Shown: in pieces, positions 4,758 to 36,168 of the stretch | Numbering within the stretch: the stretch's first letter is position 1 | How the letters are laid out: every line of letters begins with the position of its first letter | NCBI GenBank assembly: GCA_017443585.1 | Contig: JAFSYV010000269.1 | Location: 1 to 45,826, forward strand | DNA: 45,826 bases | Reading direction: 5' to 3' | Origin: Lentisphaeria bacterium | GTDB taxonomy: Bacteria; Verrucomicrobiota; Lentisphaeria; Victivallales; Victivallaceae | Position numbers and translations under genes: made by a program | The notes under the pieces: generated by a model | Database searches by the model: none | What the model was told of the DNA's origin: nothing | Seen by the model: the letters and a program-made list of their open reading frames with translations, nothing else

Positions 4758-4786
4758 TTGACTTTTTGCAAAAGAAGGAGTATATT
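4758..4786 (+). promoter_or_regulatory. sigma70-type promoter of the polysaccharide locus
   Basis: TTGACT (4758-4763), a 17-base spacer, then TATATT (4781-4786). This is the best promoter match in the window. The predicted start is near 4793, about 160 bases before the NusG-paralog gene. Confidence 0.8.
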
Positions 4787-4792
4787 ACAGTT

Positions 4793-4951
4793 TTAACAGG
4801 TAGGGAAGCCACGTTTTTCAGTGCTTTCCGCCCTGTGTTCGTCATGTGAAAAGAGTCGTTTTTGTGAGCGGCTTTTTTCCTCGGGGTGTTGCAGTGCGTT
4901 TTTTACACTGCAATGCTTTAGGGTGGTCGGATTTTGCGGAGAAGCTGTTTT
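4793..4951 (+). promoter_or_regulatory. structured 5' leader with three hairpins
   Basis: Three consecutive hairpins lie between the predicted start and the NusG-paralog gene. Hairpin 1: arms 4803-4812/4821-4829, nine pairs with one bulged C, loop GTTTTTCA. Hairpin 2: arms 4848-4858/4869-4879, eleven pairs with two G-U, loop TTTTTGTGAG, its 3' arm ending in six T. Hairpin 3: arms TTGCAGTG 4889-4896 and CACTGCAA 4906-4913, eight perfect pairs, loop CGTTTTTTA. CGTTTTT recurs at 4812, 4857 and 4897, each time at the stem-loop junction or in the loop. The leader carries no convincing ORF. A role as recruitment, pausing or attenuation element for the NusG paralog is inferred from position. Confidence 0.6.
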
Positions 4952-5539
4952 ATGGACGATGGTTTTATCCATAAGATCGAAGGCGGCGTCTGGTCGCCGG
5001 TCTTCACGCTCCCCCGCAACGAAAAGAAGGTGTTTTCGCGTCTGACGCAGCAGGGGATCCCCGCATACCTGCCGCTGAAGAGGCATGTCAATGTTCAGTC
5101 GGTGGCCGGCAACGGGAAAAGCTACTCCTACAAGCGGGTGCTTCACGTGCCGATGTTCACCAACTATCTGTTCGTGAACGTGACGCCCGAGGTTCTTTCG
5201 GAGCTGAACTGGGATCGGTCCGTGGTCAGAGTCCTCAAGCCCACTGAGCAGCAGGAGTCGGTCCTTATCGAGGAGCTGAAGGTCATCCGTGAACTGGAGA
5301 GCTTCTCCGAAGACGAGGAGATCGACGTCACGTTCGGGTTGAAAATAGGGAAGAGAGTCGTCTTCACGGAAGGACTTTTCAGGGGCTGGTCGGGAGTGAT
5401 ATTGTCGGTGGAGCCGACGGGGATGGTGTACATAAACATCACCTCGGTGGCGGCCTCCGTCGAAGTGAAGTATCCCGCGGCCTGGTGTCTGGTCAGCGAC
5501 GGCCCGGCGTCCGTAGGCCGCGTTGAAACGGTTCGGTGA
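4952..5539 (+). CDS. specialised NusG-family transcription elongation factor (UpxY/RfaH/LoaP type)
   Basis: 195 residues from ATG 4952, with GGAGAAG seven bases before it; a TTG at 4934 is an alternative start. The N-terminal NGN domain (about residues 10-110) shows W-S-P-V-F-T-L-P-R-N-E-K-K-V, then QGIPAYLPLKR and the P-M-F-T-N-Y-L-F-V strand that contacts RNA polymerase in this family. The C-terminal KOW domain (about 130-170) has I-G-K-R-V-V-F-T-E-G-L-F-R-G-W-S-G-V-I. A NusG paralog as first gene of a capsule or EPS operon is a known arrangement (RfaH, UpxY, LoaP). Such factors bind elongation complexes at a leader element and suppress termination across long operons. Here it follows a structured leader and precedes about 30 kb of same-strand genes, so it probably regulates its own operon in cis. 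Confidence 0.88.
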   Translation: MDDGFIHKIEGGVWSPVFTLPRNEKKVFSRLTQQGIPAYLPLKRHVNVQSVAGNGKSYSYKRVLHVPMFTNYLFVNVTPEVLSELNWDRSVVRVLKPTEQQESVLIEELKVIRELESFSEDEEIDVTFGLKIGKRVVFTEGLFRGWSGVILSVEPTGMVYINITSVAASVEVKYPAAWCLVSDGPASVGRVETVR

Positions 5540-5592: not shown

Positions 5593-6969
5593 ATGCAAAC
5601 AATGGATTTCTGGTTTTTCTGGGACATCTTTCGAAAGAAGTGGAAAATGATCCTCTTTTCCGCTTTCGCCGTGGCGACGATCTCCGGCGTGTGCAGCAAG
5701 CTCCTGATCCGCCCGGTGTACCGCTCCTCGGTTTCCCTTTACCTCGGCCGGGTGACTGAAGGCAGTTCCTTGGAGAAGGTGGCCGCCGTATCCCGCGGCG
5801 CAAATGAATTGACCAACACCGCCGCCGAGCTCGCCCTGGGAAGCAACCTGGGTACCGACTACAAGGAACTCATCAACTTTGAATTCCTGAAGGAAGGCGT
5901 CGAGGACCAGCTGGCCAAACAGGGCAAGTGGGACCGCAAAAAGTACGACGTTTCGACCGAAGGAAAGACCGCCTCCCGGATTCTCACGATCAATATCGAC
6001 AGCGACAACCCGGTCTACTCCCAGGAGGTCGCCACCATCTACGCCCGCGAGTTCATCAACAAGGTACAGCAGCTGGTGGGCATCCAGAATACCCAGATCG
6101 TCGAAGAGCCCGCATTGCAGATGAAGCCCATCTTCCCCAACATTCCCAAGAATGTGGGAGGCGGATTCATCGCCGGATTCCTTCTCTCCTTCATGGTCTT
6201 CGTCACCATCCGCATCCTGGACCGCAGAGTGAGGACATCGGAGGAGGTCGAAAGCTTCCTGCACGTCCCGGTGGTGGGGACCGTGCACAAGGACAAGCAA
6301 TATTCGCTGAGCAAGGACAACCCCTTCCTCTTCACAAGCAAGGAAGAATCACCCCAGGACCGCTCCCAGATCGCCGAAGATTTCCGGGTCTTCCGGGTGA
6401 ATCTGATCAACAAGAAGCCCGAAGGGCAGGAAGGCGGCTCCGTCATCGCCGTGACCAGTACCAGCGCCAAGGAAGGCAAGACCTTCTGTACTGCGAACCT
6501 GGGCGCCGCCCTCGCGGAAGCCGGCTACCGGGTGCTTCTGGTGGACTGCGACACGGGCGAACGGGGACTGCAGAGCTACTTCGGCAAGGCGGAGGAAAAG
6601 GGCCTGATGAACATCCTTTCGGGCGAGGCCAACTTCGAGGACACCGTCAAGCGCAATCTGAACAACCTCAACATGGACGTGCTTTTCTGCGGAGACAAGA
6701 ACCTCAACTCCGCCAACTTGATGGTCTCGCCGAAGTTCAAGGAGCTAATGGAAAAACTGAAGCAGGATTACGATTACGCTTTCCTCGATGTTTCCTGCCA
6801 CCTGGGGACCGCCGACATCGTCTCCGCCGGAAGTTCCGCCGACTCGGTGCTGCTGCTGGTCAGAGCGGGTGCTACGGAGGGCGAAGTCATCAAACAGACT
6901 GCTGACGCCCTCAAACGGGCCAACCTGAATATTTCGGGCGTCATTCTCAACGGTGTGGACGAGGAGTAA
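5593..6969 (+). CDS. Wzz-like chain-length determinant fused to BY-kinase-like ATPase
   Basis: 458 residues; GAGGTGA lies upstream of ATG 5593. The N-terminal half is a polysaccharide co-polymerase: a first membrane segment (about 18-38), a periplasmic region, and a second membrane segment (about 190-212, GGGFIAGFLLSFMVFVTI) preceded by a Pro-rich stretch. The C-terminal half is a CpsD/Wzc-type P-loop ATPase: Walker A SAKEGKT at about 291-297, Walker A' DCD at 318-320, and a Walker B-like LDVS at 398-401. Wzc proteins set polymer length and drive export through Wza. Unlike Wzc, the protein ends at VDEE with no C-terminal Tyr cluster, and the usual D-x-P-P after Walker B is D-V-S-C. Autokinase activity is therefore doubtful, though a nucleotide-driven assembly role remains likely. 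Confidence 0.82.
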   Translation: MQTMDFWFFWDIFRKKWKMILFSAFAVATISGVCSKLLIRPVYRSSVSLYLGRVTEGSSLEKVAAVSRGANELTNTAAELALGSNLGTDYKELINFEFLKEGVEDQLAKQGKWDRKKYDVSTEGKTASRILTINIDSDNPVYSQEVATIYAREFINKVQQLVGIQNTQIVEEPALQMKPIFPNIPKNVGGGFIAGFLLSFMVFVTIRILDRRVRTSEEVESFLHVPVVGTVHKDKQYSLSKDNPFLFTSKEESPQDRSQIAEDFRVFRVNLINKKPEGQEGGSVIAVTSTSAKEGKTFCTANLGAALAEAGYRVLLVDCDTGERGLQSYFGKAEEKGLMNILSGEANFEDTVKRNLNNLNMDVLFCGDKNLNSANLMVSPKFKELMEKLKQDYDYAFLDVSCHLGTADIVSAGSSADSVLLLVRAGATEGEVIKQTADALKRANLNISGVILNGVDEE

Positions 6970-6975
6970 GGTGTT

Positions 6976-8016
6976 ATGATCGACAAAAAGCGACAGTTCC
7001 GTCATTCCCTGCTCAACAAGATCATTTCCGCGTTCCTGCTGCTGCTGGTCATCATCGGAATGATCTACGCGGGATATCAGATCGCCGAAACCTACCGGGA
7101 AAAACCCGACTTCGGCGGTGTGGTCACCCTGAGGCAGGCCGATATGGACCTCGAGTTCGACGGCGAGACCGTCCATCTGAGCCGGGAAGAGATCATAGAG
7201 TACATCACCAGCCGCAAGGTGCTCGAACCCATCGCGAAAAAGTACAAATGGGACGTCCCCTTCGACAAGATGGTGGAGGCCACTGACGTCAAGGAGCGTC
7301 TTTCCTCGCAGCGCAGTTTTGTGATTCTGGTGAACACCATGAATGTGGAACGTTCCAATCAGGTCGCCCGCGCTTTGAGCTTCGCCTATCTGGAACACTA
7401 CCGGAAGGCCTGGACCCTCAAGAGCCGGGGGAATCTGGTCGCCTGCGACCGGAAAATCAAAGTGTTCAATCAGGAACTGGCGGAACTCCGGGCCGCCCGC
7501 AGGAACTTCCAGGAGCGGAAACAGCTGATCCCGGTCAACTCCGTCGATGAAATGCGCGCCGTCAACGACCAGCTGGTCGAAGCCCAGAAACAGTTTCTCG
7601 CGGCTTACGGCGCCTATATGATCAAGATGGAGGAAAAGCGTTCGGAGCTCCAGCTGCAGTACGACCTGGCCAGGCAGACCACCACGGACAACAACGCCGC
7701 GGTCAGAAGGATGAAGCTCCAGCTGCAGGAACTCGACCGGCAGTGCGCGGACCTGAGGATCAAACTGGCCAAACAGAAACCCAACCTCTACCGCCTGAGT
7801 CTGACCCCCCAGAAGCTCGAAGGGCTGCCCAACGACATCCTTTACTTCTATGACAACGTCCAGACCCTTCAGCAGCTCAAACTGGCACTGATGATGGACT
7901 CGATTATAGAGGAAAAACAGAGTATGCTTGATAAAGAAAAAAGGAAGAAGAACACCATCGAACGGCTGATCGCCACCCGTTCCTGCGATGTCTTCATCCG
8001 GGAGGTCGGAAGATGA
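6976..8016 (+). CDS. coiled-coil PCP-like membrane protein, single N-terminal TM
   Basis: 346 residues; AAGGTG precedes ATG 6976, six bases after the previous stop. One membrane helix near residues 14-34 (IISAFLLLLVIIGMIYAGY) is followed by a mixed domain and a long charged coiled coil (about 150-270) with RxxxxEL/QLQELDRQ patterns. This is the layout of a polysaccharide co-polymerase periplasmic domain, but the second C-terminal membrane helix of Wzz/Wzc proteins is absent. The chain ends in a charged stretch and IREVGR. It lies between the chain-length ATPase and the exporter and overlaps the exporter start by four bases, so it probably bridges or regulates those two. Family assignment is by layout, not by a decisive motif. 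Confidence 0.6.
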   Translation: MIDKKRQFRHSLLNKIISAFLLLLVIIGMIYAGYQIAETYREKPDFGGVVTLRQADMDLEFDGETVHLSREEIIEYITSRKVLEPIAKKYKWDVPFDKMVEATDVKERLSSQRSFVILVNTMNVERSNQVARALSFAYLEHYRKAWTLKSRGNLVACDRKIKVFNQELAELRAARRNFQERKQLIPVNSVDEMRAVNDQLVEAQKQFLAAYGAYMIKMEEKRSELQLQYDLARQTTTDNNAAVRRMKLQLQELDRQCADLRIKLAKQKPNLYRLSLTPQKLEGLPNDILYFYDNVQTLQQLKLALMMDSIIEEKQSMLDKEKRKKNTIERLIATRSCDVFIREVGR

Positions 8017-9074
8017 AACGCTTTTCACTCTCGGCAGGCCTCGTTTCCTGGGGATTGATCCTGCTCGCCGGATGCGCTTCTCCGCCCTTCGCCCCCGTGG
8101 CCGTCCCCAACAGCTCCACGGTCTTCGAAAGCCTGGAAGGGCCCAAGCCCGATCCGAAAAAGATCGAGGCTGAGCTCAGAAGCCTTCAGAAGGTCAACCC
8201 CGGCGATTACCGGCTCAAACCCGGTGACAGTTTCGCCATCATCATCGACGGCCAGCTCGAACAGAGCCGTCCGGTGGTCAAGGTCATGCCCAGCGGAGCG
8301 ATCAGCGTCGCCCCCATCGGCTATGTCAAGGTCGGCGGCCTGACCATTCCCGCCGCGACGAAGTTGCTGACCAGCAAGTACAAACGCTTCTTCCGCAACT
8401 GCGAGATCATCATCGAGCCCCAGGAGTTCAAGCCTGACGCCTTCACCATCAGCGGCAGCGTCAAAAGTCCGGGCATCTACCCCTTCGTTTTCGGATCGTT
8501 CAGACTTCTCGATGCCGTAGCGGCGGCCGGAGGACTGGCCACCGCCACGATCGGGTCGCGGGGTGACCGCTATGAACTGGCCGACCTTGAGAACGCCTAC
8601 ATCGTCCGGGACGGCCGGGTGCTCCCCGTCGACTTCGTCGAAGCCATTGTCAAGGGCAATCCTCTGCACAACATCCCGCTCATGAGCGGTGATGCCATAC
8701 AGATTCCCTCCCTCGACAACGGCAAGATCACGATCCTGGGCGAGGTCGGGGATCCCGACTGTATTCCATACCAGCCCGGCTTGACTCTTTTGCAGGCCAT
8801 CGGCTACGCGGGGGGCATGAAAGAGACCAATTCCTGGTACGTGAAAGTCATCCGCGGCGGGCTCAAGAGTCCAGTGGTTTTCACGCTTGACATCGTCGAT
8901 ATCCAGAAAGGCAGGTGCATGGATTTCGCCCTCAAACCCAGGGACATCGTCTTCGTTCCCCGGAGCTTCATCAGCGAATGGAATGTCATCGTCCGTCAGA
9001 TCCTGCCCACGATCCAGCTGCTGAACGGTTTGGCCGGCCCCTTCGGGAGTCCCTCGAATTTCCTGTACAGATAA
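8013..9074 (+). CDS. Wza-like polysaccharide export lipoprotein
   Basis: 353 residues, start overlapping the previous stop (ATGA). A lipoprotein signal peptide ends at L-L-A-G-C (Cys about 21). A Poly_export domain (about 65-140) starts Y-R-L-K-P-G-D-S-F with V-M-P-S-G-A-I-S-V-A-P-I-G. Two SLBB-type segments follow (FTISGSVKSPGIYPF and ITILGEVGDPDCIPY, each followed by a GGL/GGM turn). The C-terminus has a hydrophobic/amphipathic stretch (IVRQILPTIQLLNGLAG), as expected for the helix that builds the outer-membrane pore in Wza. It would form the export channel for the polymer and interact with the chain-length proteins encoded just upstream. Confidence 0.9.
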   Translation: MKRFSLSAGLVSWGLILLAGCASPPFAPVAVPNSSTVFESLEGPKPDPKKIEAELRSLQKVNPGDYRLKPGDSFAIIIDGQLEQSRPVVKVMPSGAISVAPIGYVKVGGLTIPAATKLLTSKYKRFFRNCEIIIEPQEFKPDAFTISGSVKSPGIYPFVFGSFRLLDAVAAAGGLATATIGSRGDRYELADLENAYIVRDGRVLPVDFVEAIVKGNPLHNIPLMSGDAIQIPSLDNGKITILGEVGDPDCIPYQPGLTLLQAIGYAGGMKETNSWYVKVIRGGLKSPVVFTLDIVDIQKGRCMDFALKPRDIVFVPRSFISEWNVIVRQILPTIQLLNGLAGPFGSPSNFLYR

Positions 9075-9105
9075 TACCGAATTCAACATAAAAGGAGACA
9101 ACACA

Positions 9106-9582
9106 ATGAAAAAGGTCTTTATTTTCGGGATCTCCGCGCTTGCGGTGCTGCTCTGCGGCTGCCGGACACAGATCGTGACGGTGAATGTGGTTCCGGCAGA
9201 CGCCACGGTCATCGCCAACGGTGTGGAATACAAAAACAAATCCCCCATGTTCATCGAAGCCAACACCGGAAGACAGCTGATGATCACCGCCTACAAGGAA
9301 GGGTACAGGGAAAAGATCCATGCCGTCGATTATTCGCTCAGTACGCTGGGCAAGATCGAGGCATGCACCAGCATCTTCATCCTTCCCGCCTTCGGGCTGC
9401 TCTTCGACAATGCCTGGGAACTCAAAGAGAACAACGTCGATCTCGTCCTCGAGCCGATTTCCGATGAAGCCAAGAAGGAAGCGGCAAAATCGGGGATCTA
9501 CGATCCCGCCAACAAGTATAAGTACAATCCCGTGGACACCACTACGGATCCCAAGGCGAAACAGGCGTTCTCCCAGTTGTGA
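9106..9582 (+). CDS. small lipoprotein with PEGA-like domain
   Basis: 158 residues with AGGAGA upstream of ATG 9106. The signal peptide ends at the lipobox L-L-C-G-C. The segment TVNVVPADATVIANGVEYK followed by KSPMFIEANTGRQLMITAYKEGY resembles a PEGA-type beta domain (short surface-glycan-associated modules with P-x-x-A-x-V-x-x-x-G). A hydrophobic stretch (SIFILPAFGLLFDNA) comes next, then a charged tail. It is the first of four small lipoproteins in a row behind the exporter gene, so an envelope role near the export machinery is likely. No enzymatic motif is visible. Confidence 0.7.
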   Translation: MKKVFIFGISALAVLLCGCRTQIVTVNVVPADATVIANGVEYKNKSPMFIEANTGRQLMITAYKEGYREKIHAVDYSLSTLGKIEACTSIFILPAFGLLFDNAWELKENNVDLVLEPISDEAKKEAAKSGIYDPANKYKYNPVDTTTDPKAKQAFSQL

Positions 9583-9656
9583 GTCCCCGTTTCGGAAGAT
9601 AAGAACCCCCAAGTCCCGCTTCGGGTAGAAGCGGAAAACCATTATAGGAGAAAAAA

Positions 9657-10148
9657 ATGAAACACTCTCAAAAGGTGCTGCTGCTGACGGCGGCAGTGAT
9701 CGGTGCCGGCTTGCTGGCAGGTTGCTCGACGAAACTTTCCCCTGAGCCCTTCGATTCGAACACGCGGCTCACCGCCGGTCAGGTCAGGAACACCGTTCAG
9801 GTGGGCAAGACCACCCGTCTCGAGATCTTCAAGTCTCTGGGCACCCCGAACGTGGTTTCCATGGAATCCGGGAAGGGCGAGGTCTGGACCTACGACCAGA
9901 TTAAGGTCCGCCGCACGGCTCAGGGTTATGACGCCGGCGCTTACTTCCTGACCGGGTTCGCTTTCGGCAGCGGATTCGATCCCCGCCGGAGCCACCTCAG
10001 TCCCGGACATGGCATCGGCGCGGCCGGCGTTTCCGCCAGCGGCAGCGTTGGTACCGATACCACCGCCGTCCAGACTGCAACGTTGGTCATCCGTTTCGAC
10101 GCCAACGACAAGGTTCAGTCCTACAAGATGCTGGTCACCTCCTTCTGA
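9657..10148 (+). CDS. small lipoprotein, BamE/SmpA-like (paralog 1)
   Basis: 163 residues; TAGGAG precedes ATG 9657. The lipobox is L-L-A-G-C. After the Cys the sequence carries V-Q-V-G-K-T-T-R-L-E-I-F-K-S-L-G-T-P-N, then V-W-T-Y. That is the G-x-T/S-x-x-E-V...L-G-x-P...W-x-Y pattern of the BamE/SmpA/OmlA fold. A Gly/Ser-rich insert (about 100-135) separates this from a final strand pair ending K-V-Q-S-Y-K-M-L-V-T-S-F. The gene at 10760 has the same architecture and the same kind of C-terminus, so the two are paralogs. Linkage to the exporter suggests help in outer-membrane assembly of the polysaccharide machine. Fold assignment is from short motifs. Confidence 0.68.
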   Translation: MKHSQKVLLLTAAVIGAGLLAGCSTKLSPEPFDSNTRLTAGQVRNTVQVGKTTRLEIFKSLGTPNVVSMESGKGEVWTYDQIKVRRTAQGYDAGAYFLTGFAFGSGFDPRRSHLSPGHGIGAAGVSASGSVGTDTTAVQTATLVIRFDANDKVQSYKMLVTSF

Positions 10149-10165
10149 TGACGGGAGATATTGTC

Positions 10166-10744
10166 ATGCGTAAAGTTTTTATTTCCATCTGTGCGCTCGG
10201 CGTGCTTCTGCTGGGCGCCGGCTGCATCTCCCCCCAGCCGCCCGCCGACACCTCGACGGGCCTGAACGGTCTGCAGCAGCGTTCCCTGACGATCCGCAAC
10301 ATCGGTGAAGATCTGGGCGCGTCCTACAACGATGTCTGGTTCAGCACCATTTCCACGCTTCAGCTCAACGGTTTCGTGCTGAAGCAGGCGGACAAAAACG
10401 CCGGATTCATCTACGGTGTCTGGCAGGATTCCTACGAAGCGCAAACCGAAACGACTCAGGGCGGATTGGTCCTGACCCAGCTGGGCGTGACCAACCCCTC
10501 CTGGTACGGCGGCGCTTTCTTCAGCCGGACCACGGTCTTCAAGCAGATCGAGGTTTCCGTGACTCTCGAGCCTCTGGCCAAGACCCAGACGCTGGTGCGT
10601 TTGTCCTCGCGTTTCGACAGCGAGGGAGTGCCGATGGCTCACGGCGTTTTCGCCAGCCGTTTCTTCGGCCTTCTGCGCAGAGAGATCTTCCTGCGCAAGA
10701 ACGGCGGTTCCATTTACCAGAAATTCAGTGTTGCAACCAAATAA
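10166..10744 (+). CDS. small lipoprotein of unknown function
   Basis: 192 residues from ATG 10166, chosen because GGGAGA lies seven bases upstream and the signal peptide then starts properly (MRKVFISICALGVLLLGAGC). An in-frame ATG at 10148 would overlap the preceding gene. After the lipobox Cys the protein has a mixed alpha/beta feel: Y-N-D-V-W-F-S-T-I-S-T-L-Q-L-N-G-F is reminiscent of lipoproteins in which a helix S-x-x-D-V-W-x-A-x-x-x-x-L precedes a strand on oxidising or aggregating substrates. No catalytic motif is evident. It sits between the two BamE-like lipoproteins and is very probably co-transcribed with them. Confidence 0.65.
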   Translation: MRKVFISICALGVLLLGAGCISPQPPADTSTGLNGLQQRSLTIRNIGEDLGASYNDVWFSTISTLQLNGFVLKQADKNAGFIYGVWQDSYEAQTETTQGGLVLTQLGVTNPSWYGGAFFSRTTVFKQIEVSVTLEPLAKTQTLVRLSSRFDSEGVPMAHGVFASRFFGLLRREIFLRKNGGSIYQKFSVATK

Positions 10745-10759
10745 TAAGGATCGAAAATA

Positions 10760-11224
10760 ATGAAAAAACTGTTTTTAACGGCTGTCGCGGCTCTTTCCGC
10801 CGCGCTGCTCATCACCGGATGCTCCGATATCAAGGAGCTGAACAAGGCTTTGGGTGAAGCCTCCTCTCTGGATGAAGTTTCCACCCTCGGTCTCCGCATC
10901 GTGCAGAACAAGACCACGCAGAACGACGTGCTCAAGTCCATCGGCGCCCCCAGCCTGACCTTCGACAACGGCGACGGATCCACCTGGATCTATACCAAGG
11001 TCGCGGTGCGCAACAATCAGAGCAATGCCAACGCCTCCATCGGGTTCGATGCTTTCTTCCCCTACAAGGCCAACTCCTTCAGCCGCGGCGGCGGTGTTGC
11101 CGGAGTTCACGGCGGTGCGGCGACGGCTTCTCAGCGGTCTTCCTACAAGACTGCCGCTCTGACGATCAACTTCAACGCGCAGGGCTGTGTCACCAACTAC
11201 GAATTTTCCGCCACCAGTTTCTGA
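10760..11224 (+). CDS. small lipoprotein, BamE/SmpA-like (paralog 2)
   Basis: 154 residues; AAGGA precedes ATG 10760. The lipobox is L-I-T-G-C. The central pattern is I-V-Q-N-K-T-T-Q-N-D-V-L-K-S-I-G-A-P-S followed by S-T-W-I-Y-T-K-V-A-V, then a Gly/Ala/Ser-rich insert and a final L-T-I-N-F-N-A-Q-G-C-V-T-N-Y-E-F-S-A-T-S-F. This matches the gene at 9657 segment by segment (same T-T motif, same W-x-Y, same TSF end), so a local duplication separated by one other lipoprotein gene is likely. A terminator follows 15 bases after the stop, closing this block of the operon. Confidence 0.68.
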   Translation: MKKLFLTAVAALSAALLITGCSDIKELNKALGEASSLDEVSTLGLRIVQNKTTQNDVLKSIGAPSLTFDNGDGSTWIYTKVAVRNNQSNANASIGFDAFFPYKANSFSRGGGVAGVHGGAATASQRSSYKTAALTINFNAQGCVTNYEFSATSF

Positions 11225-11238
11225 CGGAAATTATGGAG

Positions 11239-11274
11239 CGCTCCCGCTGGAATGTCCTTCCGCGGGAGCGTTTT
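11239..11274 (+). terminator. intrinsic terminator after the lipoprotein block
   Basis: CGCTCCCGC (11239-11247) pairs with GCGGGAGCG (11262-11270). An inner GGAA/TTCC extends the stem after one bulged T. TTTT follows, then GGGCTTTT. The stem is strong and the T-tract is interrupted, so read-through is possible, particularly with an antiterminator. Confidence 0.7.
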
Positions 11275-11319
11275 GGGCTTTTCTCGGGGCCGTTTTTCGT
11301 AAAGAGATCCGATGTTTCC

Positions 11320-11350
11320 GAGCCTGATCGGCTGAAAAAAGATCAGGCTC
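11320..11350. repeat. perfect 10-bp inverted repeat
   Basis: GAGCCTGATC (11320-11329) and GATCAGGCTC (11341-11350) pair perfectly around an 11-base loop that ends in six A. No T-run follows on the plus strand. On the minus strand the T-run lies in the loop. It could be an RNA element or a protein-binding site. Confidence 0.5.
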
Positions 11351-11556
11351 ACCTTTATCCTGTCGAATACGCGCCCCCGCACAAGGCGGAAGCTCCGCTC
11401 CCGGAGCTTGCCGCGTGAAATTTTCCGCCTGCAATGATGCCTGTGTCATTGAAGTCCGGGAAAAGTATTCAGATACCGTTAAATTCGACTCCGTGTCCGA
11501 AAAAGGCCGGGATTGTAAGCTGTTCCTGAAAGCCTCGTCGAAGAACTGTTTTTCGA

Positions 11557-14500
11557 ATGAGAAATCTGCTGCCGTCACCTCCGCTGCGCCATATCATCAG
11601 TGCTTTGCTGCTGGTCGTATTCGACATCATCGTCGTCACCGGCGTGTACTGGCTTGCCCTGTATATCTCCTACGAATGCGAGATCGGCAGCATCCCCGCC
11701 GATGCTCTTCAATCTTATATCAGATCCATCCCCATCTACCTGATCGCCAGCGTGGTGGCCTACCGGTTCGCCAAGATGTACGACAGCATCTGGCGGCTCG
11801 TGAGCTATTATGAACTTTGCGTCTTCGGCGCGGCGGTCGCGGTTTTGGCAGTCGGATACTTCGCGGTGATGCTTCTGCTGGGCAGTCCCCTGCCCTCACG
11901 CTATTTCGCCATCGGCGGCTGGCTCCAATTGTCCCTTCTGGTGCCGGCGCGTTTCGCATACAGGCTGCTGCCGCGGATGTGGACCTACTTCCGCGCGGTC
12001 CGCGGCAATGGCGGCGACTGCAAGCGGGTGCTGCTCATCGGGGCAGGCTCCGCCGGACAGGTCATCCTCCGCAATATCGCCGGCGCCGCCGATGCCAGTC
12101 TGCGGGTCTGCTGCATCATCGACGACAATCCGGCCAAGCACGGCTGCAGTTTGGAGGGGATCCCGGTCGTCGGCGGGAGAGACGATATCCTCGCCAACGT
12201 GAAAAAATACCGTATCGATGAGATTTTCCTGGCTATCCCGAGCATCGACGGAGAGAGCAAGAAGCGGATACTGGAAATCTGCAAGGAGAGCAACTGCAAG
12301 CTGCAGATCCTGCCCGGCGTCAGCCAGCTGGTGAACGGAGAAGTCACCCTCTCCAGAATGAATGGCGTCTCGGTCGAGGACCTGCTGGGACACGAGCCCG
12401 TCCCCGTGAATACGGATGAGATCTGGAACAATCTCAACGGCCGGATCATCCTCGTCACCGGCGGCGGCGGCTCCATCGGCAGCGAACTCTGCCGCCAGAT
12501 CGCAACGCTCAAGCCCAAGCAGCTCATCATCTTCGACATCTACGAAAACAACGCCTACGAGATCGAGCAGGAGCTGAAGCACGATTTCCCCGACCTGAAC
12601 CTGACCGTGCTCATCGGTTCCGTCCGGGACAGCCGGAGACTGGACGACATCTTCCGGGCCCTGCGTCCGGAGATCGTTTTCCATGCGGCTTCCCACAAAC
12701 ACGTGCCGCTGATGGAAAACAACCCCTGCGAGTCCATCAAGAACAACGTGATGGGGACCTACAAGGCGGCCTGCGCCGCCATCGAATACGGCTGCCGGAG
12801 ATTTTACTACCTGAGCACGGACAAGGCGGTCAACCCGACCAGCGTCCTCGGCGCCAGCAGCCGGATCTGCGAAATGCTCATGCAGACCATGGAGCACCTG
12901 GTCCGGACCGGCAAGACGGAAAAACTTTTTCCGCCTTCCGAGCACAAGGGCGCGCCCGTCTGTCCGAACGGCTGCCGGATCGAATTCGCCTCCATCCGTT
13001 TCGGCACGGCGATCGGCTCCGAAGGGTCGTTCTTTCATCTGTTCAAGAAGCAGATCGCCGAGGGCGGCCCGGTCAAGGTGACGCACAGGGATGTGACGCG
13101 CTTCTGCATGGACAGTCCCGAACTCGTCAAGCTGATCCTTCAGGCGGCGGCCTACGCACGGGACGGTGAGATCTTCGTGCTGGATATGGGGAACCCCTTC
13201 AAGATCGACACGCTGGCCCGCAACCTGATCCGGTTGAACGGCCTTGTTCCCGACAAGGACATCGCCATCGAATACATTGGGCTGCGGCCCGGAGAAAAGA
13301 TGTTCGAAGAACCGCTGATGTGGGAGGAAGGCATGAGGAAGACCCCCTGCCCCCGGATCTACGTGGCGAATCCGACCAGGATCGATATCGACCTCTTCCT
13401 GCGGAATTTGCAGGACTTCTTCCAAGCGGCGGTGGAGAACTCGCCCAAGATCAAGGAAATGTTCCGGACCGTGGTGAATTCCTACCGTTCAGCCGATGTT
13501 TCGACCGAGAAAGCGCAGACGGTCGCCGCGGATCTTCAGGAGCAGGAGTCCATCAACCATCTGGAGTGCGTCGCACTGGAATTCCGGATCAGAGGCAAGG
13601 TCGATGCGATCGTCCCGATGAACAAGGGCTACATCAACCGCACCTACCGGGTGGAAACGGTCGACGAGAAAGGGAACAACTTCCGCTACACGCTGCAGCG
13701 GATCAACACCGATGTCTTCACGGATCCCGGAAAGCTCATGGAAAACTTCGTGCTCGTCACGGAACATCTGGCGAAAAATCTGCATCTTCCGTGGAACCCG
13801 GAACTGCCGGCCAACCAGCAGGTAATCTTCACCCAGACGGGAAAGAGCTTCTATTCGGACTTTTCCGGCACTTGGCGCATGCTCTCCTATTTCGACCGTG
13901 CGCACTCCTACGACATCCCCAAGTCGGCCGAAGTGTTTCATGATTCGGGGATCGTCTTCGGTCTCTTCGTCAAGGCCATGGAGGGAGTCCCCGCCGATTC
14001 CGTCCACGAGGTCATTCCGGAGTTCCATCACACGTTCCGGCGGTATGAGCATCTGGAAAAGGCCATTCAGGCCGATCCGATGCATCGGGCGGGCAGCGTT
14101 CAGAAGGAGATCGAATTCATCCGGAGCCACCGGGCGACCTTCCGCCTGATCTCCGATGCGCTGCAGAGGGGGGAGATCCCGCTCCGTCTGGCGCACAACG
14201 ACTGCAATCTGAACAACGTCCTCTTCGATGACGCCACCGACAAGCCGGTCGCGGTCATCGACCTGGACACGGTGATGCCCTCCTCCATCCTCTATGACTT
14301 CGGCGACAGTTTGAGGATCGGCATCAACACCGCCCGCGATGACGAGAAGGACCTCAACAAGGTCAGCTGCGACCTGGCGCTCTTCGGATCCTACGCCCGC
14401 GGCTGGCTCGAAGCCTGCGGCAAGATCCTGACGCCCGAGGAAGTGGACCTGCTGCCCTACGCGCCCATCATCATCACTTTCGAGGACGGGATCCGCTTCC

Positions 14501-14706
14501 TGACCGATTATCTGAACGGAGATATCTATTACTACATCTATTACCTCGGGCAGAATCTCGACCGGGCGCGGACCCAGCTGAAACTGGCTGGGGACATGCT
14601 GGAAAAACTGCCGGAAATCCAAAAGATCCTGCGCAAGATCCTGTCGGATCTCAACATCGCAGTTCCGTCCGATCCGGCGGAAAATCAGAAAGAAACCATC
14701 GTATGA
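11557..14706 (+). CDS. fusion: membrane nucleotide-sugar 4,6-dehydratase-like (CapD/WbpM) + HexNAc 1-kinase-like
   Basis: 1049 residues. Part 1 (about 1-620) is CapD/WbpM/PglF-like: four membrane helices (about 12-150), a CoA-binding-like Rossmann domain with G-A-G-S-A-G at about 170, then an SDR domain with GGGGSIG at 302-308 and S-T-D-K-A at 420-424. In the family the SDR active site is S...M/Y-x-x-x-K; here the positions are Leu431 and Ser435, so both Met/Tyr and Lys are missing. Part 2 (about 665-1030) is an APH-fold kinase resembling N-acetylhexosamine 1-kinase (NahK): N-K-G-Y-I-N-R-T-Y near its start, the Brenner motif H-N-D-C-N-L-N-N with Asp882, and D-L-D at 902-904. WbpM proteins end near 600-660, so the kinase is an added domain. 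The next gene, a nucleotidyltransferase, overlaps the stop (ATGA). A HexNAc to HexNAc-1-P to UDP-HexNAc salvage route is inferred. The ribosome site is weak. Confidence 0.85.
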   Translation: MRNLLPSPPLRHIISALLLVVFDIIVVTGVYWLALYISYECEIGSIPADALQSYIRSIPIYLIASVVAYRFAKMYDSIWRLVSYYELCVFGAAVAVLAVGYFAVMLLLGSPLPSRYFAIGGWLQLSLLVPARFAYRLLPRMWTYFRAVRGNGGDCKRVLLIGAGSAGQVILRNIAGAADASLRVCCIIDDNPAKHGCSLEGIPVVGGRDDILANVKKYRIDEIFLAIPSIDGESKKRILEICKESNCKLQILPGVSQLVNGEVTLSRMNGVSVEDLLGHEPVPVNTDEIWNNLNGRIILVTGGGGSIGSELCRQIATLKPKQLIIFDIYENNAYEIEQELKHDFPDLNLTVLIGSVRDSRRLDDIFRALRPEIVFHAASHKHVPLMENNPCESIKNNVMGTYKAACAAIEYGCRRFYYLSTDKAVNPTSVLGASSRICEMLMQTMEHLVRTGKTEKLFPPSEHKGAPVCPNGCRIEFASIRFGTAIGSEGSFFHLFKKQIAEGGPVKVTHRDVTRFCMDSPELVKLILQAAAYARDGEIFVLDMGNPFKIDTLARNLIRLNGLVPDKDIAIEYIGLRPGEKMFEEPLMWEEGMRKTPCPRIYVANPTRIDIDLFLRNLQDFFQAAVENSPKIKEMFRTVVNSYRSADVSTEKAQTVAADLQEQESINHLECVALEFRIRGKVDAIVPMNKGYINRTYRVETVDEKGNNFRYTLQRINTDVFTDPGKLMENFVLVTEHLAKNLHLPWNPELPANQQVIFTQTGKSFYSDFSGTWRMLSYFDRAHSYDIPKSAEVFHDSGIVFGLFVKAMEGVPADSVHEVIPEFHHTFRRYEHLEKAIQADPMHRAGSVQKEIEFIRSHRATFRLISDALQRGEIPLRLAHNDCNLNNVLFDDATDKPVAVIDLDTVMPSSILYDFGDSLRIGINTARDDEKDLNKVSCDLALFGSYARGWLEACGKILTPEEVDLLPYAPIIITFEDGIRFLTDYLNGDIYYYIYYLGQNLDRARTQLKLAGDMLEKLPEIQKILRKILSDLNIAVPSDPAENQKETIV

Positions 14707-15443
14707 GAGTCATCATTCCCGCAGCCGGGAAAGGGTCGCGTCTTTCCACTTCGCCGGACGCCCCGCCCAAAGCCATGTACAGGGTCGGGGGCCGGCCTCT
14801 GCTGGAGATCGTCCTCGAACAGACCTCCTTCATCCCGCCGGAGGATACGTGGATCGTCGTCGGCTACAAGCAGGCGGAAATCCGTTCCTATTTCGGCAAT
14901 GCGTGGCACTACGCCGAGCAGCACGAACAATTGGGGACCGGCCATGCCGTCATGATGTGCGCCGAAGATTTCCGGGACTACGACGGGACGGTGATGGTGA
15001 CCTTCGGCGACATGCCCCTCTTCAGACGGGAGTCCATGAAGGCCATGTGTGCGTTTCACGAGTCGAATCACGCCGCCTGCACGGTGATGACCGCCCGTGA
15101 TTCCGAGCTTACCATGTGGGCGCGGGTCATCACCGACGAGCGGGGATACTGCCGGAAGATCGTGGAAGGCAAGGACTGCACGCCCGAGCAGGCGCGGATC
15201 AAGGAGCTCTGTGCGGGGGTCTTCGTCTTCGACAGCAAAAAGCTGTTCCACTATCTGCCGAAGCTGAGTTCCGCCAATGTGCAGCTCGAATACTATCTCA
15301 CGGAAGTGCCCGAACTGATGGCGGCGGACGACCTCCCGGTCCTGACTTTCCCCACGGACGACAAGAACGATTTGCGGGGCATCAACACCCCGGCCGACGT
15401 CGTCGTCTGCGAAAAGATCCTGAAAGAACGCGGTATCTTGTGA
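14703..15443 (+). CDS. sugar-1-phosphate nucleotidyltransferase (GlmU N-domain-like)
   Basis: 246 residues, start overlapping the previous stop. The N-terminal signature P-A-A-G-K-G-S-R-L with P-P-K-A-M, the Q-L-G-T-G-H-A-V segment and G-D-M-P-L are the nucleotide- and sugar-binding motifs of the NTP-transferase fold, closest to the uridylyltransferase domain of GlmU. It lacks the left-handed beta-helix acetyltransferase domain of full GlmU. It would join UTP (inferred) and a HexNAc-1-phosphate into a UDP-sugar and release pyrophosphate. Translational coupling to the kinase-containing fusion strongly suggests that it uses the kinase product. Confidence 0.85.
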   Translation: MRVIIPAAGKGSRLSTSPDAPPKAMYRVGGRPLLEIVLEQTSFIPPEDTWIVVGYKQAEIRSYFGNAWHYAEQHEQLGTGHAVMMCAEDFRDYDGTVMVTFGDMPLFRRESMKAMCAFHESNHAACTVMTARDSELTMWARVITDERGYCRKIVEGKDCTPEQARIKELCAGVFVFDSKKLFHYLPKLSSANVQLEYYLTEVPELMAADDLPVLTFPTDDKNDLRGINTPADVVVCEKILKERGIL

Positions 15444-15480
15444 GGCCGACCGAATTCCGCCCGCTCAAGGAGGCAAGATT

Positions 15481-16134
15481 TTGAAGCACATACCCCACGG
15501 TATTTATGAAGGACACATCAAGAGGCCGCTGGATCTTCTTTGTTCCCTGGCGGCGCTGATTTTTTTGTCGCCGGTGCTTCTTGTCGTCGCCCTTCTGGTC
15601 AGGATCAAACTGGGTTCGCCGGTGTTCTTTACCCAGGAGCGCCCGGGAGTCATTGATCCGGAAACGGACAGGGAAAAAATATTCCGTCTGGTCAAGTTCA
15701 GAACCATGACCGATGAGCGGGATGTGAACGGAGAACTGCTTCCCGATGAAAAAAGATTGACGTCCTTCGGGAAATTTTTGAGATCGACATCGCTGGATGA
15801 ACTTCCCGAGCTGTTGAATATCATCAAAGGCGACATGTCGATCGTGGGGCCGAGACCGCTTCTGGTCAAGTATTTGGAGCGTTATACACCGACCCAGCGG
15901 AGGAGACAGGAAGTCCGCCCGGGCCTGACGGGTCTCGCCATGTCGACCGTGAGGAACAGCCAGGGGTGGGACAAGAAATTCGAACTGGATGTCCAGTATG
16001 TCGACAACGTCACTTTTCTGCTGGATGTGAAGATCATTTTGTGGACCGTAAGGATCGTCTTGAAACGCGAAGGGATAAATGAGCCCGGCTGCGCGACCAA
16101 TGCTGAATTCATGGGGACTTTGAAGAAGAAATGA
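15481..16134 (+). CDS. initiating undecaprenyl-phosphate sugar-phosphate transferase (PglC/WcaJ C-domain type)
   Basis: 217 residues from TTG 15481; a perfect AAGGAGG seven bases upstream decides this start. One N-terminal hydrophobic helix (about 20-42) begins after K-R-P-L-D-L-L-C-S. The catalytic region has F-F-T-Q-E-R-P-G, V-K-F-R-T-M, D-E-L-P-E-L-L-N-I-I-K-G-D-M-S and V-G-P-R-P-L, all hallmarks of monotopic phosphoglycosyl transferases. The size is that of the minimal PglC form rather than the five-TM WcaJ form. It starts the repeat unit by moving a sugar-phosphate from a UDP-sugar to undecaprenyl phosphate on the cytoplasmic face. The following gene overlaps its stop by four bases. Confidence 0.92.
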   Translation: MKHIPHGIYEGHIKRPLDLLCSLAALIFLSPVLLVVALLVRIKLGSPVFFTQERPGVIDPETDREKIFRLVKFRTMTDERDVNGELLPDEKRLTSFGKFLRSTSLDELPELLNIIKGDMSIVGPRPLLVKYLERYTPTQRRRQEVRPGLTGLAMSTVRNSQGWDKKFELDVQYVDNVTFLLDVKIILWTVRIVLKREGINEPGCATNAEFMGTLKKK

Positions 16135-17030
16135 AAACTCTGCTCATCGGATCGGTAGGATCCTCGAAGGTCGTCTTGCAGGCAATGATAGAGACGAACT
16201 TTCCGATCACTCACGTTTTTTCGCTCGATGAAGTTGTCTCCGCAAATGTTTCGGGGTATTATCCGATCCACGAAATTGCGGAAAGCCGCGGGATTCCCTT
16301 CACCAAATTCAAAAAAATCAATGATGAAGAGAATGTGAGCATAATCAAGTCGATCGCCCCGGACTACATCTTCGTGGTCGGCCTCTCCCAGTTGGTCAGC
16401 AGGGAGATCATCAAGTGTGCGAAACTGGGGGTCATCGGATTCCATCCGACGCCGCTGCCGAAGATGCGCGGACGGGCCGCCAACGTGTGGCAAGTGCTTC
16501 TGGGCGTGCATGAGACCAAATGTTCCATGTTCTTCATCGACGACGGCATGGACAGCGGGGACATCCTCGGTCAGGAAGACTACGTGATCGAAGACTCGGA
16601 CTATGCGATGGACATATACCGGAAAATCGAAGAAGCGACCTACAGACTTTCGAAGCGGGTATTGCAGGAAATTGTCGACGGCACCCTGAATCCCGTGAAG
16701 CAGAACGAAGAGGAGGCGACGTATCTTCTGAAACGTTCTCCCGAAGACGGAGAAATCGACTGGAACGAACCGATCGCAACGATTCACAGGCTGATCAGAG
16801 CCGTATCCCGCCCTTTTCCCGGTGCGTTCGGAATGTATGACGGGAAGCATAAATTCATCATCTGGCGGGCCGATATCCGGGAAAACACGAAGTATATCGG
16901 AATGAACGGGCAGATCGCAAGGCTCGGAGCAGACGGCATCGACGTCGTCTGCCGGGACGGTCTGCTCCATGTGACTGAATACGAAAACGTCGACAGCGTG
17001 AAAATTTTTGCAGGTCATAAGTTAAGGTGA
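16131..17030 (+). CDS. formyltransferase-fold sugar N-formyltransferase-like protein
   Basis: 299 residues, ATGA overlap with the previous gene. The GART-type catalytic loop is present as G-F-H-P-T-P-L-P-K-M-R-G-R-A with His105, followed by M-F-F-I-D-D-G-M-D-S-G-D-I-L. This is the conserved hydrophobic/DxG-x-D-x-G-D-I signature of methionyl-tRNA and sugar formyltransferases. The Asn normally two residues before the His is Gly here. I recall a GFHPT..LP..RGRA subfamily in surface-glycan loci, but the exact chemistry of that subfamily is unsure. A C-terminal domain (about 205-299) resembles the small beta domain of Fmt. The context (deacetylase, acetyltransferase, initiator) supports formylation of an amino sugar using 10-formyl-THF. 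Its base composition looks more AT-leaning than that of the neighbours. Confidence 0.75.
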   Translation: MKTLLIGSVGSSKVVLQAMIETNFPITHVFSLDEVVSANVSGYYPIHEIAESRGIPFTKFKKINDEENVSIIKSIAPDYIFVVGLSQLVSREIIKCAKLGVIGFHPTPLPKMRGRAANVWQVLLGVHETKCSMFFIDDGMDSGDILGQEDYVIEDSDYAMDIYRKIEEATYRLSKRVLQEIVDGTLNPVKQNEEEATYLLKRSPEDGEIDWNEPIATIHRLIRAVSRPFPGAFGMYDGKHKFIIWRADIRENTKYIGMNGQIARLGADGIDVVCRDGLLHVTEYENVDSVKIFAGHKLR

Positions 17031-17031
17031 G

Positions 17032-17700
17032 ATGATGAATATTCTGGTGATCGCGCCTCATCCGGACGATGAGATCCTCGGTTGCGGAGGAACAATAGCC
17101 AAGCATGCGACAAAGGGTGACGATGTTTACGTTTCGATCGTCACGAGGGGAATGGCCCCCATGTTCCCGCAGGAGATCGTGGAACGGACACGTTCGGAAT
17201 GCCGTCGGGCGGATTCCTTTCTGGGGGTCAGGGAAACATCTTTCTTGGATTTTCCCGCGGTCAAATTGGAGGAGATCCCCAGAAGCGAGTTCAACGCAGC
17301 CTTCATGAAACTGATCCAGAGAATCAAGCCGCAGATCGTTTATCTGCCTCATTACGGGGATATGCAGTTGGACCACAGGATGACCGTCGATGCGGCGATG
17401 GTGGCGCTCCGTCCGAAGTATGAGCATGTCGTCAGCAGGGTATACGCCTATGAAACCGTCTCCGAGACGGGCTGGAACATTCCCAATACCGTCAACGAGT
17501 TCATCCCCAACTGCTACAACGACATCAGCGGATATCTGAAGAAAAAACTGGAGGCGCTGGCGATGTTCGAAACTCAGATCGCCGACTATCCGGACGCAAG
17601 ATCGCTGAAGGCGGTCGAAGCTTTGGCGCTGTACCGCGGAACGACCGTGGGCGTCGAAGCCGCCGAAGCCTTCGTACTTATCCGGGAAATCGCCAAATAA
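17032..17700 (+). CDS. PIG-L/LmbE-family zinc deacetylase
   Basis: 222 residues; AAGGTGAG lies just upstream. ATG 17035 is an equally good start, one codon later. The N-terminal A-P-H-P-D-D-E motif (His10, Asp12, Asp13) and the later L-D-H-R are the zinc and catalytic residues of the PIG-L family, which removes N-acetyl groups from GlcNAc-containing glycans or nucleotide sugars. No signal peptide, so it works in the cytoplasm. Lying directly after the formyltransferase (one base gap), it could free the amine that is then formylated or re-acylated. Confidence 0.88.
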   Translation: MMNILVIAPHPDDEILGCGGTIAKHATKGDDVYVSIVTRGMAPMFPQEIVERTRSECRRADSFLGVRETSFLDFPAVKLEEIPRSEFNAAFMKLIQRIKPQIVYLPHYGDMQLDHRMTVDAAMVALRPKYEHVVSRVYAYETVSETGWNIPNTVNEFIPNCYNDISGYLKKKLEALAMFETQIADYPDARSLKAVEALALYRGTTVGVEAAEAFVLIREIAK

Positions 17701-17719
17701 CTCGAAGGGCAGTTGTTTC

Positions 17720-18340
17720 ATGAATCGGCTTCTGATCCTCGGCGGCGGCGGCCACGGCCGCGTTGTTGCGGACATCGCCCGCCTGAACGGCTATGAGGAC
17801 ATCGGATTTCTCGATGACTCGGCCGACTGCGGCGACCTCCCCTTCCCCCGTCTGGGAAAGTGCGGTGATACGGTCCGTTACGTTGCAGACGGCGATTTCA
17901 TCGTGGCCATCGGCAACGCGGCGGTGCGGCGGAACTTTCAGGAGCGGATCGCCGCGGCAGGAGGAAATCTGGCCGTACTGATCCATCCGCGGGCCGTCGT
18001 CGCTTCATCCGCAGTCATCGGGCGCGGCAGCGTGGTGATGGCCGGAGCCGTTGTCAACCCGGACGCAAAAATCGGCGAGGGCGTCATCGTCAATACCGCC
18101 GGAACGGTGGACCACGATTGCGAAGTGGGAGATTTCGCCCATGTCTCGGTCGGGGCGCATTTATGCGGGACCGTGAAGATCGGCCACGGGACCTGGATCG
18201 GCGCCGGAGCGACGGTCATCAACAACATATCGATCTGCGGAAACTGCCTGATCGGAGCCGGCGCGGTGGTGGTGAAAGACATCCGTCAGGCCGGCACTTA
18301 CGTCGGCATTCCCGCAAAACTTTTGCATAAAACGTTATGA
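17720..18340 (+). CDS. PglD/NeuD-like sugar acetyltransferase
   Basis: 206 residues. The N-terminal Rossmann-like subdomain begins L-L-I-L-G-G-G-G-H-G-R-V-V-A-D, as in PglD. The C-terminal left-handed beta-helix is built from hexapeptide repeats with V-D-H-D-C-E-V-G-D-F-A-H-V-S-V-G-A-H-L-C-G, where the central His is the usual general base, and ends with I-G-A-G-A-V-V-V-K-D-I and Y-V-G-I-P-A-K. It would transfer acetyl from acetyl-CoA to a sugar amine (as PglD does on UDP-4-amino sugars) or hydroxyl. No DegT-type aminotransferase gene, the usual partner, is present in this window. Confidence 0.88.
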   Translation: MNRLLILGGGGHGRVVADIARLNGYEDIGFLDDSADCGDLPFPRLGKCGDTVRYVADGDFIVAIGNAAVRRNFQERIAAAGGNLAVLIHPRAVVASSAVIGRGSVVMAGAVVNPDAKIGEGVIVNTAGTVDHDCEVGDFAHVSVGAHLCGTVKIGHGTWIGAGATVINNISICGNCLIGAGAVVVKDIRQAGTYVGIPAKLLHKTL

Positions 18341-19428
18341 AAATTCTTATTCTCTGCAATAATGATCTCGGCCTGTACAAGTTCCGCAAAGAGCTTTTAC
18401 AGGAGTTCCGGAAAAGAAACTATGATGTGACCATCGTTCTGCCCGGCGGGCCCTTCGTTCCCCGCCTGAAGGAGATGGGGTGCCGCTGCATCGAGCTGAA
18501 CTTCGAGCGGCGCGGCAAAAACCCTTTCGCCGACTTTTCCCTTTTCTGCAAATACAGAAGGATCATCAAAGAGACCCGGCCGGATGCGGTCCTGACCTAC
18601 ACCATCAAACCCAACATCTACGGAGGAATGGCCTGCCGTCTCCTCAAGGTCCCGTATATCGTCAACATCACCGGGTTGGGAACGGCGCTCGAAAACCCGG
18701 GCTGGACGCAGAAAATCTGTCTGTTCCTGTACAAGATTGCCCTTTCCGGGGCCCGAAAGGTCTTTTTCCAGAACACCGAAAACCGGGATTTCATGCTCAA
18801 GCGCGGTGTTGTCCCCGGAGCTTATGAACTGTTGCCCGGTTCGGGAGTCAATTTGATGGAGTTCGCCCCCCTGCCCTACCCCGAGGGGGAAGCGGTAAAA
18901 TTCCTTTTCATCGGCCGCGTCATGCGCGACAAAGGCATCGACGAACTGCTCGCCGCGGCGAAAACCTTGAAACGCGAGAACTTGGATTTTTCGCTGGATG
19001 TGGTCGGCGGAATGGACGAAGATTACGGAACCAGATTGAAGGCCGCCGAGGACCAGGGGCTGATAAAATACCACGGCATTCAGGCAAATGTGGCGCCGTT
19101 CATCGCCGATGCGCACTGCATCGTGCTGCCTTCGTACCACGAGGGGATGGCCAATGTCCTGCTGGAAGCGGCGGCCAGCGCCCGCCCGGTGATCGCCACA
19201 CGGGTGCACGGGTGCATGGAAACCTACAATGAGGGCGAGTCCGGGTTGGGCTGCGAAGCGGCCGATGCGGAGTCCCTCGCCGACGCCATGCGGAACTTCA
19301 TCCGCCTCGGTTCCGAGGCGAAGCGGAATATGGGACTGGCCGGACGCCGCAAAGTGGAATCGGAATTCGACCGGCAGATCGTGGTTTCCGCCTATATCGC
19401 TCAAATCGAAGAACTGACAAAAAACTGA
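18337..19428 (+). CDS. GT4 family glycosyltransferase (PglA/Cap-like)
   Basis: 363 residues, ATGA overlap with the acetyltransferase gene. GT-B fold: the N-terminal M-K-I-L-I-L-C-N-N-D-L-G-L-Y-K-F-R-K-E-L-L and Y-T-I-K-P-N-I-Y-G-G segments match glycosyltransferases that add the second sugar to a diNAcBac- or FucNAc-type acceptor (PglA, WbpT-like). The C-terminal domain has F-I-G-R-V-M-R-D-K-G-I and the donor-binding L-P-S-Y-H-E-G-M-A-N-V-L-L-E-A-A motif with the E-x7-E spacing. Being directly coupled to PglD- and PglC-like genes, it probably adds the second residue of the repeat unit. Confidence 0.88.
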   Translation: MKILILCNNDLGLYKFRKELLQEFRKRNYDVTIVLPGGPFVPRLKEMGCRCIELNFERRGKNPFADFSLFCKYRRIIKETRPDAVLTYTIKPNIYGGMACRLLKVPYIVNITGLGTALENPGWTQKICLFLYKIALSGARKVFFQNTENRDFMLKRGVVPGAYELLPGSGVNLMEFAPLPYPEGEAVKFLFIGRVMRDKGIDELLAAAKTLKRENLDFSLDVVGGMDEDYGTRLKAAEDQGLIKYHGIQANVAPFIADAHCIVLPSYHEGMANVLLEAAASARPVIATRVHGCMETYNEGESGLGCEAADAESLADAMRNFIRLGSEAKRNMGLAGRRKVESEFDRQIVVSAYIAQIEELTKN

Positions 19429-19440
19429 ATTGCCTTTGCC

Positions 19441-21878: not shown

Positions 21879-21961
21879 GTCATGCCCGGACACTGCCGTC
21901 GTGAAAAGAAGAAACTGAAAAAAAGCTAAAATGAGCAAAAACTCATTCGGAGAGCTCAAAG

Positions 21962-25445: not shown

Positions 25446-25449
25446 TAAA

Positions 25450-26979: not shown

Positions 26980-27024
26980 GGAGCAAGTTATTTTCGATCC
27001 GTTCAAATACCCGGAGGTTTCCAA

Positions 27025-28158: not shown

Positions 28159-28191
28159 CGGATCTGCCGTTTACAGACAGGAGACGGGAAT

Positions 28192-28719: not shown

Positions 28720-28734
28720 TCAGGAAGACGTGTT

Positions 28735-31308: not shown

Positions 31309-31309
31309 C

Positions 31310-32470: not shown

Positions 32471-32517
32471 CCGGGATGTCTAACTGCAAGCTGCAAACTG
32501 TTTCCAAGGTGTTTCCC

Positions 32518-34955: not shown

Positions 34956-34966
34956 TTTTTCAGGAC

Positions 34967-34995
34967 TTGCAATCCAACGGGTCCGAATGTATATT
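34967..34995 (+). promoter_or_regulatory. sigma70-type promoter for the epimerase pair
   Basis: TTGCAA (34967-34972), 17-base spacer, TATATT (34990-34995) continuing AAG. It has the same -35 and -10 as the minus-strand promoter at 4641-4669. The leader to the next gene is about 95 bases. Confidence 0.72.
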
Positions 34996-35098
34996 AAGCA
35001 GGGGCATTTCGAGCCTTTTGTCTGATTGAGTAACAGTCCTGCCGTGAGGCCGGACGCATCATGAAGTCTGTTCACATTTCACATTGGGAGTTGATATT

Positions 35099-36088: not shown

Positions 36089-36168
36089 TCCAGGTCCTTT
36101 TCCGCACCCGACCGGCGCGGAGCCGGGACGTGCAGTAATTATTTTTTGAAACAGGAGTTTTTCGTTCC

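Follow-up and report, generated by a model that had tools for sequence, protein, structure and literature searches.

A conserved leader hairpin, and candidate RNA recruitment element, preceding a UpxY-like NusG paralog gene and its polysaccharide gene cluster in Lentisphaeria

The stretch of DNA analyzed here (the window, 45,826 nucleotides from a gut-type Lentisphaeria bacterium) carries on its forward strand, at 4952..5539, a gene for a UpxY-like NusG paralog made of an NGN and a KOW domain, as assigned from Pfam, NCBIfam and a structure model. The protein scores 32.5 bits against Pfam NusG. Its top NCBIfam family is UpxY (NF033644), with 68.2 bits, which is below the cut-off of 100, and it passes neither the curated LoaP model (NF033641; 21.9 bits, cut-off 125) nor the curated RfaH model (TIGR01955; 35.1 bits, cut-off 144.5). 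Its predicted structure (pLDDT 76) shows an NGN domain and then a KOW barrel, and a long beta-hairpin (residues 42-67) bears a basic GKSYxYKR insertion that is typical of its clade. When a profile of this clade was compared with PDB sequences, the NusG-RNA complex 8f5g came first (E 7.8e-8), with RfaH behind.

Downstream of the paralog gene, polysaccharide genes extend on the same strand for about 32 kb (5593..37227); they were recognized by domain matches and are presumed to be the target operon. This co-oriented cluster encodes a Wzc-like kinase, a Wza-like export protein, a sugar transferase, glycosyltransferases, epimerases and acyltransferases. The paralog gene heads a capsule/exopolysaccharide operon, as in the UpxY family. 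The gene next to it (5593-6969) encodes the Wzc-like tyrosine kinase, and no upxZ inhibitor gene is adjacent. Within the cluster, a forward-strand site at 24273..24307, inside the glycosyltransferase coding sequence 23200-24360, closely resembles an intrinsic terminator (a 10-bp stem followed by T7), and it is the only site in the window, on either strand, that satisfies a strict terminator rule. The cluster also encodes, at 11557-14706, a 1049-aa protein in which a CapD-type polysaccharide dehydratase is joined to a phosphotransferase (APH) domain at the C terminus.

Upstream of the paralog gene, a consensus scan alone places a sigma-70-like promoter (TTGACT-17-TATATT) at 4758..4786 of the forward strand, and the transcript probably starts near 4793, directly 3' of it. 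The leader so defined (4793-4951) folds into three stems with a minimum free energy (MFE) of -59 kcal/mol and a z-score of -3.9, a value matched by none of 200 shuffles; these are the stems that the earlier note on this DNA had drawn on paper, in nearly the same places. All three are on the forward strand: hairpin 1 spans 4797..4836 (core 4803-4829); hairpin 2, at 4848..4879, has an A-rich 5' arm and T6 on its 3' side; and hairpin 3, at 4886..4916, consists of an 11-bp stem (4886-4896 paired with 4906-4916) closing the loop CGUUUUUUA at 4897-4905. Hairpin 3 is followed by a 3' tail (4917..4940) that reads UUUAGGGUGGUC and then GGAUUUUGCGGA.

The sequence CGTTTTT is indeed found at 4812, 4857 and 4897, one copy for each hairpin. 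That it always lies at or in the loop, as had been claimed, holds in the MFE structure for hairpins 1 and 3, but not for hairpin 2, where the 7-mer is mostly in the stem. CGTTTTT itself reached three copies in none of 3000 dinucleotide shuffles of the leader. However, some non-homopolymer 7-mer was present at least three times in 160 of the 3000 shuffled leaders (about 5%), and some 7-mer was as frequent in 94 of 2284 leader-length pieces of the window. While the leader fold is significant, the triple repeat is only marginally so, because the 7-mer was picked after inspection, a choice for which its significance must allow, and because it is over-represented in the whole window (19 observed against 7.6 expected).

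Which of these structures are conserved could be judged from orthologous leaders. A search of the species genomes with the single protein gave zero ortholog matches, and the closest paralogs within the same genus were only about 30-37% identical. An alignment query succeeded instead, yielding named relatives from Lentisphaeria/Victivallales, with the orthologs L027 (genome G093, 53% identical protein) and L028 (genome G094, 57%), and a whole-genome search added those of G122 and G084. A DNA pattern derived from hairpin 3, TTTTNCACWGCAATGC, occupies the same pre-gene position in the window, G093, G094 and G122 and was found at no other fetched locus; inspection of the leaders added G084 and the more distant counterparts of G120 and G075. 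Hairpin 3 with its tail, denoted here as the type A element, is located directly 5' of the paralog gene in these seven genomes, and in all orthologs it lies about 12-45 nt 5' of the start codon, near the ribosome-binding site. It is absent from most genomes having a NusG paralog. Comparison of orthologous leaders, the check that the earlier note had proposed, gave a divided answer: hairpin 3 is conserved and displays compensatory changes, whereas hairpins 1 and 2 are absent from the relatives and are a species-specific leader structure. A multi-copy element, as had been envisaged, is not supported, and the best-conserved sequence of type A is the 3' tail (GGnUGCYYGGAUUU) rather than CGTTTTT.

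A covariance model (R1) was built from five training copies as an 11-bp stem, a loop and a 24-nt tail, with the loops N-padded to equal length; the window copy scores 57.1 bits with R1 and 59.6 bits with model R2. Among the copies that R1 had not seen, a second copy in G084 scored 55.3 bits (E 1.6e-10 per genome), those of G093 and G075 scored 36.5 and 34.6 bits, and one in G173 scored 28.9 bits (E 0.0014 per genome; across the 198 genomes searched, some 0.3 such matches would be expected). In the alignment of the nine type A copies (A7), which is fitted to the model and so favors structure, 88.9% of the stem cells are paired, and 7 of the 11 pairs show changes on both sides. Double-change cells number 20, against 6.0 +/- 2.0 in shuffled alignments (0 of 500 reached this figure), and partners taken from a slid register score far lower in every register. 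The slid controls, together with the held-out copies, argue against the type A structure being an artefact of the fitting of A7. The evidence base is small, nine copies in all, and the U-rich loops vary in length from 6 to 11 nt, none of them holding a UNCG tetraloop. The tail, with the consensus YUnnGGnUGCYY followed by GGAUUU, is invariant in the nine copies at U2, G6, U8, G14, U16 and U17, and the Y-G step at the junction of these two blocks falls exactly 12 nt 3' of the stem in eight of them, G093 being the copy without it.

Two further features bear on the level at which selection acts. G-U pairs occupy 8 of the 99 stem cells, and a stem-loop of 31 nt is longer than the strand that a single transcription bubble exposes. 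The use of G-U pairs and the length of the stem suggest that selection acts on the RNA and not on the non-template strand of the bubble. No match at the Rfam gathering score was obtained for the window and 13 element loci, and the best match of a permissive Rfam search was a chance miRNA (E 0.95). Comparison of the copies shows hairpin 3 and its tail (4886-4940) to be a cis-acting RNA element conserved in both sequence and structure.

The element is also found away from the paralog gene. The second copy in G084 lies about 20 kb from it, 131 nt 5' of a hexapeptide-transferase gene that opens a run of polysaccharide genes continuing with a pyruvyl transferase and glycosyltransferases. In G173, which belongs to another order of the class, the sole copy precedes a UDP-sugar dehydrogenase gene at the head of a polysaccharide cluster of about 15 kb; the NusG paralog of that genome is 2.6 Mb away and falls outside clade A. 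The G173 copy is weaker on its own, being weak by score, and its assignment would depend on its position.

Several other candidates were discarded. Weak covariance-model matches of about 20-29 bits (L025 at 2806-2849, L167, L169-L173, L176, L190-L192, L193 and L199, and likewise L228 in the case of type B) were set aside; where inspected, such matches lie within coding sequences, in GC-rich palindromes or where convergent genes end, and their numbers are within those expected by chance. A match in G169 (contig C109; R2 35.4 bits) was excluded: it adjoins recR on the opposite strand, and no target gene was seen. A possible divergent copy preceding the G125 paralog (GCAUUGCA..UUGCAAUGC) reached only 7.6 bits and was left out of the count.

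A different hairpin accompanies a second paralog of the same genome as the window. This type B element, a hairpin with the tail GCCCCRUAUGnGGGCnnCGCnnCCCnGA, lies on the minus strand of contig 280 of genome G000 (26707-26756), by the paralog L226, and recurs with the orthologs L224, L225 and L227 in G026, G077 and G089. Its cells are paired in 91.7% of cases, with both-side changes in 4 of 12 pairs; a class-wide search with the type B model returned those four copies and one chance match, and no type A element was found in the type B leaders. In the protein tree, the type B proteins form a single supported clade (100/99), while the type A proteins form two, one with the window, G084, G122, G093 and G094 (100/99) and another with G075 and G120 (100/99).

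That a second paralog has its own, different conserved hairpin suggests that hairpins in this class are paralog-specific. A broader proposal, to which we give slightly less than even weight, is that Lentisphaeria possess several NusG paralogs that each have a cognate leader RNA hairpin (types A and B at the least, and probably C and D), so that several antitermination circuits in one cell would be kept separate by RNA recognition. If true, RNA-guided NusG paralogs would have arisen in a second case independent of LoaP, and for the first time more than one specificity would be known within a single genome.

Some observations were made alongside. By eye, a third paralog clade (L106, L108, L110 and L111) carries just 5' of the ORF a hairpin, CUCUUUGAGAAA..UUUCUCAAGGAG, and then a CCGGAGG-like tail (type C), and in L141, L145, L146, L149, L151, L154 and L156, whose paralogs belong to another family, a hairpin followed by GGGGnTGCGnYAGCnTTG stands just 5' of the paralog ORFs (type D). 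In L036, a long AAGC tetranucleotide tract, possibly a phase-variation tract, is found about 320-400 nt 5' of the NusG-paralog match. Finally, an ops-like sequence at 4799 of the window (GGTAGGGA; AGGTAGGGA at 4798-4806) also occurs in the type B leader L005, in both cases shortly 3' of a TATATT-type -10 box. Two leaders would be expected to share a 9-mer by chance in a few per cent of cases. The ops-like candidate, common only to that leader and missing in the orthologs, was dropped.

These observations can be integrated in a model that we consider reasonably probable: that type A is a LoaP-like RNA recruitment element, perhaps also a pausing element, of a UpxY-like antiterminator acting on the polysaccharide operon of about 32 kb. 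Hairpin 3 would probably be the landing site at which the NusG-like protein boards RNA polymerase. During transcription of the tail, the newly made hairpin would recruit the paralog, perhaps aided by a pause at the Y-G step; with this step lying 12 nt past the stem in eight of the nine copies, the signal could include a hairpin-stabilized pause. Once on board, the paralog would stay on the polymerase and suppress termination across the operon, including at internal terminators such as that at 24273. The circuit would also be self-activating, since the gene of the paralog itself lies behind the element. Hairpin 2, the only terminator-like hairpin of the leader, lies upstream of the type A element, and this position makes it unlikely to be a terminator read through by a protein recruited at hairpin 3; the terminator scan detected no terminator-like site at hairpin 2. 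The site at 24273-24307 is possibly a better candidate for a read-through target.

The recruitment model has to be weighed against other explanations, of which the one that survives best, although we regard it as unlikely, is an ops-like action, in which the tail is a polymerase pause, the paralog reads the non-template DNA by the RfaH mechanism, and the hairpin chiefly stabilizes the pause, as in a his-type hairpin pause. This would account for the tail being the most conserved part of the element, with T, GG, TG and GGATTT nearly invariant, and for the fixed spacing of the Y-G step, and there is a precedent in that paused polymerase recruits RfaH via non-template DNA (PMC7593976). However, the ops core GGTAG, present at 4799 of the window, occurs in none of the orthologous type A leaders and is common only to one type B leader, the usual G-10 is missing from the tail in five of nine copies, and G093 is without the Y-G step, while the G-U pairs and compensatory changes of the stem indicate RNA.

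The closeness of the element to the start codon and ribosome-binding site in all orthologs would also suit a translational or mRNA-level autoregulatory hairpin, for instance one at which the bound paralog controls translation of its own message, much as happens in the leaders of ribosomal-protein genes. We hold this to be improbable. A purely translational feedback hairpin is disfavored by the copies in trans, both the strong G084 copy, which precedes a different gene in another operon, and that of G173, which precedes a sugar dehydrogenase gene; furthermore, hairpin 3 leaves the ribosome-binding site unsequestered in the MFE structure of the window.

A shade less probable is that the paralog makes no use of this leader RNA, which would travel with polysaccharide operons and, for example, bind a different protein or stabilize the RNA through its hairpin: the G173 copy does coexist with a paralog of another clade, but the distribution of elements A and B follows the clades of the paralogs, as would not be expected of a generic stability hairpin. 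Very improbable, lastly, is that the three tandem CGTTTTT hairpins act jointly as a multi-copy recruitment or pausing array, since, although three hairpins with U-rich loops share an identical 7-mer and the whole leader out-folds its shuffles, the array is seen in no ortholog (those compared have at most 57% protein identity), the 7-mer reads CGTTTT, GGTTTT or TTTTTG in the conserved copies, and the repeat is significant only at about 5% once its choice is allowed for.

Turning back to the recruitment model, the earlier note's suggestion that the recruitment element is an undescribed one is supported, to the extent that sequence can do so, by a conserved hairpin with neither an Rfam match nor a description in the literature searched; an RNA recruitment element of a NusG paralog would be new for this lineage, none having been found in that literature. 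A covariation-supported element tied to a UpxY-like clade makes directly testable the question of how UpxY-type factors reach their operons. The same reading would likewise account for the way in which these bacteria select the surface-polysaccharide cluster that they express.

Three known systems invite comparison. In RfaH/ops of Gammaproteobacteria, as would be the case here, a short element in polysaccharide-operon leaders, found in cis and in trans, recruits a NusG paralog. However, RfaH relies on a pause and a non-template DNA hairpin (PMC7593976), ops combining the pause with a tiny hairpin of this kind, whereas type A has an 11-bp stem with G-U pairs and a tail. The UpxY antiterminators of Bacteroides capsule operons share with the present paralog their place at the head of a capsule-type operon, and provide its best NCBIfam match. 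UpxY is encoded by the leading gene, acts via its own 5' leader (PMC7819879, PMC7593976) and stops premature termination there (PMC7819879). It differs in belonging to Bacteroidota rather than Lentisphaeria, the type A paralog being under the UpxY cut-off and having no UpxZ-like next gene, although two uncharacterised UpxYs of B. fragilis are likewise without upxZ (PMC7593976). In the literature searched, no description of a conserved UpxY leader hairpin was found. LoaP of Bacillus velezensis, in turn, depends on an RNA hairpin in the leader for its recruitment and allows terminators, including intragenic ones, to be read through; according to a 2025 paper, no other bacterial NusG-like protein is known to bind a specific RNA element (PMC12691694). 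LoaP with the dfn leader hairpin resembles the present case in pairing a NusG paralog and long biosynthetic operons with a leader RNA hairpin as the recruitment determinant (PMC12691694), and here too the leader of a long operon, as judged from covariation and the gene cluster, contains a structured RNA hairpin. The LoaP hairpin has a UNCG tetraloop, whereas type A combines a U-rich loop with a conserved, long tail, and occurs in a different phylum. By analogy, among the LoaP, UpxY and RfaH mechanisms, a LoaP-like recruitment hairpin would be the one that fits type A best.
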